DNA of 56,183 nt from NCBI GenBank assembly GCA_900314605.1, contig OMVX01000017.1, positions 1 through 56,183 of the forward strand. The letters run 5' to 3'. The notes beneath the pieces are model-generated. The model was given only the letters and a program-made list of their open reading frames with translations. It was not told where the DNA came from and did no database searches. The stretch is from an uncultured Methanobrevibacter sp. GTDB lineage: Archaea; Methanobacteriota; Methanobacteria; Methanobacteriales; Methanobacteriaceae. A program made the position numbers and the translations under genes. This document shows positions 30,671 through 48,707 of this stretch, one piece after another; position 1 is the stretch's first letter; each line of letters opens with the position of its first letter.

Positions 30671-30991
30671 TTTTTGCTTATATTTTATAGTACTTTTATT
30701 CTTTAAAAAGAAGTAGATTATATTTTTTAAAATTTAGTAAGTATTAATTTTAGAAGATTTTTATTAGTTTTTTTTTTAAAATTAATATATTATTTATTTT
30801 TAAAATATATTTTATTAGATTTTTTTTTAAAATTTAGTATACTATTTAGTTTTAGAAAGATTTTTATTAGATTTTTTAAAAGTTAGTATAGTATTTAGTT
30901 TTAGAAGTAATTTTATTTAATTTTTTGAATTTATTCATAATTTTAAATAAAAAAAGTAGGGATTAAAAAAAGTAGAGATTAAATTAAAAAT
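30671..30991. repeat. T-rich degenerate tandem repeats between convergent genes
   Basis: Between about 30723 and 30920 lie four imperfect units of about 50 bases. Each has a T6-T9 run, AAAATTTAGTATA-type sequence, TTTAGTTTTAGAA and TTTTTATTAGA. Nothing else is seen in this 321-base gap. The T-runs on the plus strand would terminate rimI transcripts before the convergent zinc-ribbon gene. Confidence 0.6.
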
Positions 30992-31534
30992 TTATCTCCT
31001 AAATAAGCTAGTTAAGTTATTATATTCCATTTGTCCAATATGTGTTATTGTATCCATATTTATTGTACCATTTGCAAATAGTATTATTAGAAGGACAATA
31101 TAGAATGCATATATTGCTAGTTGTATAACTCCATGTCTTTTAATATTATAATCTTTACGTGTAACCAAGTAAATACTTACAATTATTCCTAGCATACTAC
31201 CTATTATAGCAAGTACATATCCGAGGAATATTAAGAAATTCATTCCAAAAGATCTTTTAGGTTTATCAAATTCAGGAGTTATAGGTTCTTCATTTATATA
31301 TTCTTGATTCCTTGTTAAAGTTGTTGGATTATTATCAGTATTTTCTTCTTTATTTTCTGTGATATTTGGAGTATTATCGCTAGTTTTTTCATTAGGTTCC
31401 TGTGCAAATATTGTTGGTTCAGGGATGTGGATTATTGGAGAATTTTCGGGGGTGAATTCTTTTCCACAATATATACAGAATCCAAATCCTGAACGATCTG
31501 TTTTTCCACAATTTGGACATTTTCTTATTTCCAT
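30992..31534 (-). CDS. Zinc-ribbon membrane protein
   Basis: 180 residues: an N-terminal double-CxxC zinc ribbon (CPNCGKTDRSGFGFCIYCG, residues 5-23), an Asn/Thr/Glu-rich linker to about residue 90, then two hydrophobic segments (FLIFLGYVLAIIGSMLGIIVSIYLV and LAIYAFYIVLLIILF) with the RRKDYNIKRHG-like basic loop between them. The function is unknown. The architecture, a cytosolic zinc ribbon joined to a membrane anchor, recurs in the two downstream-encoded proteins of this cluster (34197-36974). It is transcribed alone on the minus strand. Confidence 0.75.
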   Translation of the reverse strand: MEIRKCPNCGKTDRSGFGFCIYCGKEFTPENSPIIHIPEPTIFAQEPNEKTSDNTPNITENKEENTDNNPTTLTRNQEYINEEPITPEFDKPKRSFGMNFLIFLGYVLAIIGSMLGIIVSIYLVTRKDYNIKRHGVIQLAIYAFYIVLLIILFANGTINMDTITHIGQMEYNNLTSLFRR

Positions 31535-34196: not shown

Positions 34197-35135
34197 TTAA
34201 TTGAATATTTTTAATGTAGATATAATCTCACTTTCTACCTTGTTAAGATTTGCTTCATTTTTCTCAGATGTTGTAAATATTATATCATATTCACTTTCTC
34301 CATTTACAAATCCTATATCTCTGGTTATATTTCCATTAGCAGTATAAGTTACATTATATCCAGTGTGATTACCAAGTTTTGCTAAATCATTATAGGTAAC
34401 AGTTCCTTCAATATTATATGCTATATTATTCACTGCTGCTTGTTGTAAATCTTCAATACTTGCACCGGCATAACCATTTTCAGATAGACTTGTAATAGCA
34501 AATTTTACAGTAACATTATCCTTTGAAACTTCTAAAAGATAGTCAGTATTATTAATTTTTTGATAATTATTAGGTATACTTACAGAATAATCAGTTACAT
34601 TATAAGTAGTAAATCCAGAATCATTAGTGCTTATATTAGAATTACCAAATACTCCTATAATAATAATCACTATAAAAATTGCAAGTAAAATTAATCCCCC
34701 ATATATTATTATACGTTTATTTTTTTCACTTACACTTGGAGTATTAATCTCTTTTTTAGAAGAAGGTTTTTCCTTAAAAAGATTACTTTTTTCTTTCTTT
34801 TCAACTTTATTAGCTTGTTGAACTTTTTTCTCAGTTGGTTGAATTTTTTTCTCAGTCTGTTGAACTTTTTTCTCAGTTTTCGGAACTTTTTTTACAGTTG
34901 GTTGAACCTTTTTTTCAGTATTTTTAGTTTTTTCATAGGTAAATATTCTTCCAAGACTAGTGTCTTTTTTAACATTACCTTTTTCTTTTTTTGCTTCTTT
35001 TTCATTTCTAAAAATACTATCCGGTGTCTTGTCATTAAGTATTATTTTCTCTTCAGGTAGTTTTGTATGACAATCAACACAGTATTCCTCATTATTAATA
35101 TGTTCTTTACCACATTTTGGACAATATTTTGCCAT
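34197..35135 (-). CDS. Zinc-ribbon membrane protein with basic repeats and extracytoplasmic domain
   Basis: 312 residues: zinc ribbon CPKCGKEHINNEEYCVDCH (5-23), a strongly basic Lys/Gln/Thr-rich region with about five repeats of TEKK-V/I-Q-PT/QT (about 73-110), one membrane helix (IIIYGGLILLAIFIVIIIIGVFG, about 141-163), then an outside domain of about 145 residues. The outside domain (YSVSIPNNYQKINN ... GYNVTYTANGNITRDIGFVNG ... IISTLKIF) resembles PsbP-like domains found in many methanobacterial surface proteins. Function is unknown. AGGGAT precedes the ATG. It shares its whole layout with the next gene on the strand, whose repeats are acidic instead of basic. Confidence 0.75.
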   Translation of the reverse strand: MAKYCPKCGKEHINNEEYCVDCHTKLPEEKIILNDKTPDSIFRNEKEAKKEKGNVKKDTSLGRIFTYEKTKNTEKKVQPTVKKVPKTEKKVQQTEKKIQPTEKKVQQANKVEKKEKSNLFKEKPSSKKEINTPSVSEKNKRIIIYGGLILLAIFIVIIIIGVFGNSNISTNDSGFTTYNVTDYSVSIPNNYQKINNTDYLLEVSKDNVTVKFAITSLSENGYAGASIEDLQQAAVNNIAYNIEGTVTYNDLAKLGNHTGYNVTYTANGNITRDIGFVNGESEYDIIFTTSEKNEANLNKVESEIISTLKIFN

Positions 35136-35304: not shown

Positions 35305-36974
35305 TCAGTAGAATGTTAAACTTCTCTTTAATTGATTAATATCCTTATTAAATGAATCTATATCATCAGATATGAATAAGAATGCATATTCTTTATTATC
35401 TTTAATAAAGCCTATTGTACGATATTCATAATTATCAGTACCCTCTTTACTTGTAACATCATATACTTTTACATTATTAACTTTTTGTGTTGTTGCCTTT
35501 TTAACTAAAGCTCCACTTCGAATATCTAATTCTTCTGTTGCCCCTTTTATCTCTGATAATTTTCGCCCTGAAGCCTTTGATTGATAAACACTTAGAAGTA
35601 CTTTATGTTTATCTTCCTTAGATTTAAAACTACCAATAACATTTTGATCTGTAGTATTATATTTTTCCCAGGTAGATGGTAGTTTAAATGATATAACATT
35701 GTTTGTATATTCTCCTGGTTCTGCATTACTTACACTTAAGTAATTTAAGGAGTTTTCATCAATGTATTGGATTGTTACTGTTCCAACTATTGCAACTAGT
35801 AAAAGAACACTTAAAAAGAGTATTGCATTTTTATGAACATATCTAAAGGAATTTTTATCAATTTTATTATCATCATTATCTATATCGTCATTAAAAAGTT
35901 TTCCATTGAACAAACCTATAGATATTTTTTTCTTTACTTTCTGGATTTTTGTTTTTTCTTTATATTTTTTTAAGCTTTTTTTCTCAGAGCTATAATCATC
36001 ATATGTTTCATCATCGTTGACTTCCTCTCTATCATAGTCATACATAGATTCTTGCCCTGAAGGATATCCTAGAATTGTTTCTGCATTTATATGGTCTAGG
36101 TTTTCTATTCCTTTTGTTATTATTTCTTCTAGGTTGTCGTTGTTTTCTGTTTGTTCTTGTGTGTGTTCGATAGGTATGTATTGGTCTTCGGTTTCTAGGT
36201 TTTCTATTTTTCTATTTCTTCTAGGTTGTCGTTGTTTTCTGTTTGTTCTTGTGTGTGTTCGATAGGTATGTATTGGTCTTCTGGTTCTAGGTTTTCTATT
36301 TCTTTTGTTATTATTTCTTCTAGGTTGTCGTTGTTTTCTGTTTGTTCTTGTGTGTGTTCGATAGGTATGTATTGGTCTTCTGGTTCTAGGTTTTCTGTTT
36401 GTTCTTGTGTGTGTTCGATAGGTATGTATTGGTCTTCTGGTTCTTCAGGTGTGTGTTCAACGTAAATGTATCCGTTATCTGGTTCTAGGTTTTCTGGTTC
36501 TTCAGGTGTGTGTTCAACGTAAATGTATCCGTTATCTGCTTCTAGATCTTCTGTTTCGGAGGGGATTGTTTCTTCTAAATAATAATTATCCTCAAAGATT
36601 TCATCTTGACTATGATCTACTATAATATAGTCATCATATTTTCCTTCAATTTTTTCTTGTAAACTAGGGTTTTTTTCATCTTCCCTATTTATAAAATTAG
36701 AATTTGATGTAGGTTCTCTTATAAATGCATTTAAAGTATCCTCTGCAATATCTTCATTTGTTTTAGTTTCTTCAGGTGTTTCTAGAAACTTTTCACTATC
36801 ATGATTTGCAGATGATTTTAAAGTTGGTTTTTGCAAATTTTCAATATTATCATTTATTATTTCTTCTGAATTTTCGTCTTTTTCTAAAGCGTCTTTTAAA
36901 TTTGCACCACATGATTTACAGGATGTCTCATCCTCATTATTTTCTGTTCCACATTCAGGACATTTAATCTTCAA
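35305..36974 (-). pseudogene. Frameshifted zinc-ribbon surface protein with acidic repeats (possibly phase-variable)
   Basis: One gene read in two frames. The upstream part (36974-36204, TTG start after GGTG) encodes a zinc ribbon CPECGTENNEDETSCKSCG and an acidic repeat region, then stops at TAG 36206-36204. The repeat continues in another frame (IENLETEDQYIPIEHTQEQT, HINAETILGY) straight into the downstream part (ATG 36045) with a basic segment, a membrane helix (AILFLSVLLLVAIVGTVTIQYI) and an outside PsbP-like domain. Repeat spacing is 99 bases in the neighbouring unit but 92 at the break. A single added A in the A5 tract (plus-strand T5, 36207-36211) would restore one 556-residue protein. 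It could be phase variation, decay or a sequencing error. Confidence 0.8.
36130..36545. repeat. Coding repeat array in the zinc-ribbon surface gene
   Basis: On the minus strand there are four nearly identical units encoding QYIPIEHTQEQTEN (plus-strand landmark GATAGGTATGTATTGG at 36169, 36261, 36360 and 36417; spacings 92, 99 and 57). Two units encode GYIYVEHTPEEPEN. Near identity at silent positions indicates recent expansion. This is a protein repeat, not a CRISPR: there are no unique spacers. Confidence 0.9.
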
Positions 36975-48169: not shown

Positions 48170-48707
48170 ATCTATTATTAACCTATTTTCCATTTTTTTT
48201 TAAACAGCTTTTATATTTTTTCTAGGTTTTATTTTTTATTATTTTTTTTAAATAGAGTTATTATTTTTTTTAGGCATTATTTTTTATTATTTTTTTTTTA
48301 AATAAGGTTATTTTTTTTAGTTTTTATTTTCAATTATTTTTTTAAACAGCTTTTATAATTTTTTTCATTTTTTTATGGTGTTTAAATCTTTTTTTTAAAG
48401 TAAATAATGATTATTTAAATCTAAATTTTATAATACTTTCAGTTAATAAAATAGTAATTCAATATTTTTATCTAATAATTAAAGGTATTTTCATAATCTT
48501 TATAAATAATATAACATAGAGTATCTATAGTTACTAAATTATATGGATTAATTATATTTTTTTTAGTAACTACAAGAAGGTATTTTATACCTATTTATAA
48601 TTCGTATGGGTTAATTTAAGTGTAATTTAACTTATACATTTGTATTTAACTGTTGCTAATTATAACAGCAGTTTATTTAAATACATAGATTTTATGGAGG
48701 AATATAT
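48170..48707. other. T-rich repeats and dyads between carB and the secreted protein gene
   Basis: From about 48193 to 48375 lie three or four degenerate units of about 50-60 bases with T8-T10 runs (plus strand), suitable as a multiple U-tract terminator for carAB. Further on are two dyads: 48528-48572 (11-base arms) and the hairpin GGTATTTTATACC at 48579-48591. Both precede the gene at 48708. Confidence 0.55.
48528..48572. promoter_or_regulatory. Perfect 11-base inverted repeat upstream of the secreted protein gene
   Basis: TAGTTACTAAA (48528-48538) is exactly reverse-complemented by TTTAGTAACTA (48562-48572) around a 23-base AT-rich centre. It lies about 135-180 bases before the ATG at 48708. 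It could be an operator or an RNA hairpin if transcribed. Confidence 0.45.

Follow-up and report, generated by a model that had tools for sequence, protein, structure and literature searches.

A probable recent frameshift in an in-frame coding minisatellite interrupts the assembled gene for a Methanobrevibacter membrane protein

In a 56,183-nt contig of an uncultured Methanobrevibacter sp. (OMVX01000017.1, analysed over its whole length and called the window here), part of a draft genome of 2.37 Mb in 103 contigs, two minus-strand reading frames are separated by a stop codon inside an acidic coding repeat. Is this a gene that switches part of its product on and off, or one that was broken by accident? 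The initial annotation had joined the two frames into a single surface protein gene and proposed an archaeal on/off switch. We assign a probability of roughly 0.58 to the reading that the break arose recently by a frameshift within a coding minisatellite whose units are in frame, an ordinary event and not an evolved switch; in this reading, we infer both that the assembled bases are real and that the event is recent.

The upstream frame (36204–36974, minus strand) encodes 256 aa from a TTG start and ends within the repeat at a TAG (36206–36204) that directly follows a run of five A (A5, 36211–36207). The downstream frame (35305–36045, minus strand) encodes 246 aa counted from its first ATG and is open for 379 codons from stop to stop. 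For comparison, three other Methanobrevibacter species were available with one genome each; the records of two of these read Methanobrevibacter sp. 87.7 and uncultured Methanobrevibacter MAG from reindeer. All three hold the gene as a single open frame (505, 416 and 386 aa) that begins at TTG, and in every case the two halves can be aligned with the uninterrupted protein. As judged from these alignments, the two frames, whose coordinates in the initial annotation were exact, are confirmed as one ancestral gene (gene 1, 35305–36974, minus strand). That a single base would rejoin them is more than chance, because in the three congeners this protein is encoded without interruption. The TTG start is conserved in all four species. 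A scan of a genome collection returned only two congeners as relatives, both already known from the whole-genome search, and no relative was found among the viral contigs searched. A different, zinc-ribbon-like protein of the same genome (L002:1501-1535, G000:C43) contains a 35-base stretch that is 91% identical to gene 1 and encodes DDYIIVDH.

The gene 1 product is predicted to be a single-pass membrane protein with a zinc ribbon inside the cell, an acidic linker, a membrane helix and a PsbP-like domain outside. The N-terminal zinc ribbon (CPEC...CKSC, residues 4–26, 36897–36965, minus strand) lies in the upstream frame, has two CxxC pairs and passes the PF13240 cut-off narrowly (25.3 bits, cut-off 25). 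The membrane helix (AILFLSVLLLVAIVGTVTI, 35770–35826, minus strand) coincides with a hydropathy maximum of 2.79. The outer domain (35344–35715, minus strand) scored above the curated PF18933 (PsbP_2) cut-off of 27 both as a query on its own (29.8 bits) and in the genome search (31.6 bits), although hmmscan with the whole 246-residue frame did not list PsbP_2. Its AlphaFold2 model has a mean pLDDT of 87.9, and the top Foldseek matches of this model were PsbP/CyanoP structures (E 6e-7 to 1e-5), in line with a PsbP fold. In outer domain, fold and order of parts, gene 1 is therefore like the zinc-ribbon/membrane-helix form of PF18933 in Methanobacteriaceae, from which it is set apart by a lineage-specific minisatellite in its long acidic linker and by the broken frame in the assembly. 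Nine further genes combining a zinc ribbon, a membrane helix and a PsbP-like domain were examined across the family, and all are single open frames. The neighbouring paralogue (gene 2, 34197–35135, minus strand) is intact and has the same layout, with a lysine-rich in-frame repeat of 21/42 bases (array at 34817–34933); since these units are multiples of three, changes in array length keep the frame. The earlier argument from this common layout to a single ancestral chain is borne out by the congener frames, the alignments and the PsbP-like outer domain. A second gene of the same genome also exceeds the PF18933 cut-off (G000:C32:73925-74437, L175), and at 30992–31534, near the gene pair, another small protein combines a zinc ribbon with membrane helices.

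The linker of gene 1 is encoded by an acidic minisatellite (36113–36515, minus strand) detected with Tandem Repeats Finder, in which landmarks are spaced 57, 42, 57, 99 and 92 bases apart and the final unit is of the 99 type; the array includes near-identical copies of about 80 bases. The units of 57, 42, 57 and 99 bases are multiples of three, so that normal gain or loss of a unit preserves the frame. The sole exception is the unit carrying the break (36169–36260, minus strand), which is 7 bases short, as its landmark spacing is 92 instead of 99. The reading frame of the repeat differs before and after this unit, and the landmark spacing thus agrees with the earlier description of a repeat that continues across the TAG in another frame with 7 bases missing. 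The accompanying proposal that gain or loss of a repeat would toggle the frame could apply to the odd 92-base unit and the 8-base tract inside it, but not to the ordinary units. A CCA to ACC change is also present in the 92-base unit, which must therefore have undergone further changes. Elsewhere in the window, A+T-rich tandem repeats occur at 30714–30926 (about 49/101 bases, between genes) and 48194–48365 (about 48 bases).

How did the deficit of 7 bases arise? According to the initial annotation, one extra A in the A5 tract would restore the gene. This is correct as arithmetic, but it is probably not the history. The A5 at the break is an ordinary tract in this genome: 534 kb of ORFs contain 2,189 A5, 1,047 A6 and 352 A7 runs. 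The break is also spanned by AAATAGAAAAATAGAAAA (36200–36217, minus strand), a tract of 2.25 copies of an 8-base unit that contains both the A5 and the TAG, identified by a tandem-tract scan and by reconstruction. It is the only tandem tract in gene 1 at the out-of-frame periods scanned (4, 5, 7, 8, 10, 11, 13 and 14). A period-8 tract of this length has a frequency of 0.0016 (0.16%) in local dinucleotide shuffles, and 534 kb of other ORFs contain two comparable tracts. An 8-base tandem duplication accounts for the break better than a change in a homopolymer does. A reconstruction combining a 15-base deletion with an 8-base duplication (−15 +8 = −7) yields the sequence seen across the break. 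This is a fewest-step reading with alternatives, as −9 followed by +2 also gives −7.

Under the favoured history, the linker would have gained its minisatellite in this lineage, with units in multiples of three whose copy number normally changes in frame. The first step would have been the in-frame loss of 15 bases between two GAAATA copies within one unit, and a tandem duplication of 8 bases (ATAGAAAA twice) would then have shifted the frame and exposed the TAG. If the break is real, translation would end in the linker and yield a soluble 256-residue fragment that has neither the helix nor the outer domain. Like any short duplication, this one could revert by slippage.

Between the downstream region and its nearest congener we obtained a dN of 0.16 and a dS of 0.53 (dN/dS about 0.3), and lineage-specific changes in this region numbered 13 versus 12. 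The downstream half is thus under ordinary constraint and free of accelerated decay, in a test that is blind to a recent break that has become fixed. The break must therefore be recent, unreal or bypassed, rather than the mark of an old pseudogene, and we take the event to be recent or else confined to the strain or the assembly. The initial annotation had named relatives with the same broken frame and decayed downstream coding as the pattern that would speak against it; what we found is three intact congeners and the constraint just described.

An unreal break, that is, a sequencing or assembly error in the array of a gene that is intact in the organism, is in our judgement unlikely, yet it has to be taken seriously. 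The break lies in a repeat with near-identical copies within a draft assembly, so that the assembled bases, as they stand apart from the reads, may be wrong. Furthermore, the authors of the GeneTack survey take a lone break whose homologues are intact to be probably a sequencing error (PMC3711429). We estimated break rates from sampled stretches of this genome (about 720 kb), of the reindeer MAG (G002, 454 kb) and of a further sister assembly (G003, 1.35 Mb); the automatic test missed gene 1 itself, as the upstream match in G002 was 34.5% identical and fell under the 35% filter, whereas two other comparisons do reveal it. About 6 of the 228 gene regions compared in the reindeer MAG are broken (a paralogue of gene 2 included, roughly 2% per gene), as are about 2 of 316 in G003. 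Those in well-conserved genes, mostly single-base events, look like assembly errors and include L110:7170-7290, L056 (G002:C8:47960-48080), L097:19380-19500, L112:19290-19400 and G003:C4:71720-71830. If the reindeer MAG comes from the rumen study that its record name suggests, its reads were Illumina reads of 100–150 bases (PMC7820578). Against an error in gene 1, this genome has one other break in about 271 compared gene regions, a single-base change outside a homopolymer. That break lies at L150:6480-6620 (G000:C33), and G003 has an intact 520-residue homologue of the gene. In addition, an 8-base tandem duplication is unlike the single-base losses seen elsewhere, and a k-mer assembler would not be expected to invent one. 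The low break rate and the duplication form together therefore favour a real mutation.

If the mutation is real, could it be one state of a phase-variable switch, in which slippage of the array or of the A tract switches expression of the membrane and outer parts within a population? We consider this very unlikely. The setting is suggestive: like bacterial slipped-strand phase-variable (contingency) genes, gene 1 encodes a surface protein with a repeat in its coding sequence, the break lies inside the array, the downstream half is intact, and the frames would be rejoined if one 8-base copy, or the 92-base unit, were lost. In vitro, archaeal replicative polymerases have also been found to slip from one short direct repeat to another (PMC4134008). 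The GeneTack survey used tracts of 7 or more for calling phase-variable genes (PMC3711429), whereas the homopolymer here is an A5; the array units other than the 92-base one keep the frame, and the 8-base unit that spans the break is present in 2.25 copies only. Nor does the break recur, being found in one of four species and absent in all three congeners, and a comparable array is absent from gene 1 of two congeners, while the third has a different one. For these reasons the on/off switch proposed earlier is not supported. The reindeer MAG offers a possible parallel in its paralogue of gene 2 (L010:5887-7430), which has a much longer lysine-rich array and, just after this array, the helix and the PsbP-like domain in another frame (L010:5887-6870). 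We considered this break as a sign of recurrent switching and downgraded it, since about 2% of the compared genes are broken in that assembly. It carries little weight because several of those breaks are ordinary single-base losses in conserved genes. We doubt strongly that the outer domain of a methanogen surface protein is switched here by slippage of an out-of-frame unit within an otherwise in-frame coding minisatellite, and the adjacent paralogue likewise in a sister species. Nothing shows a mutation rate or selection befitting a switch, and among the papers we searched, none relevant to Methanobrevibacter phase variation was found.

A break could also be bypassed at the level of expression. 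Although recoding, or translation of the second half on its own, is conceivable, our results lend it no support. The halves might now be two separate functional proteins, the second starting at the ATG at 36045, and the downstream frame does keep its helix and domain under constraint; this is highly improbable, however, given that the parts are fused in all congeners and that we found no clear ribosome-binding site ahead of this ATG. Barely credible is the idea that transcript slippage or programmed −1 ribosomal frameshifting rejoins the halves at the A5: the required direction is indeed −1 at GAA AAA TAG, and the Sulfolobus alpha-L-fucosidase gene, with two frames in need of a −1 shift and an A-rich site, is a documented case of such frameshifting (PMC8211752), but gene 1 has no in-frame slippery heptamer (X XXY YYZ) within 400 bases of the break (the nearest, at 36672, is about 460 bases upstream), no stimulatory RNA structure downstream of it (minimum free energy −0.3 kcal/mol, z −0.06) and no conservation of the site among the homologues of the three congeners, and the runs singled out by a survey of transcript slippage in bacteria have about nine A (PMC1088944).

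A recent frameshift in the in-frame minisatellite thus remains the reading we prefer. It has a parallel in the chitinase of Pyrococcus furiosus (PF1233/PF1234; PMC3575233), likewise an archaeal gene that a small frame error has divided and that is whole in a relative. There, the split is attributed to a one-nucleotide insertion, whereas the break in gene 1 sits within a repeat array and matches an 8-base duplication. As it stands, gene 1 is one interrupted copy of a gene that is intact elsewhere, and it matters little in itself. It does carry a caution: a 7-base deficit in a coding repeat can mimic one missing homopolymer base, where a deletion plus a short tandem duplication is the likelier history. 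Telling a switch from an accident takes homologues as well as a genome-wide break rate. Should variation at this site be found within a culture, gene 1 would become a documented slippage switch in a methanogen surface protein.
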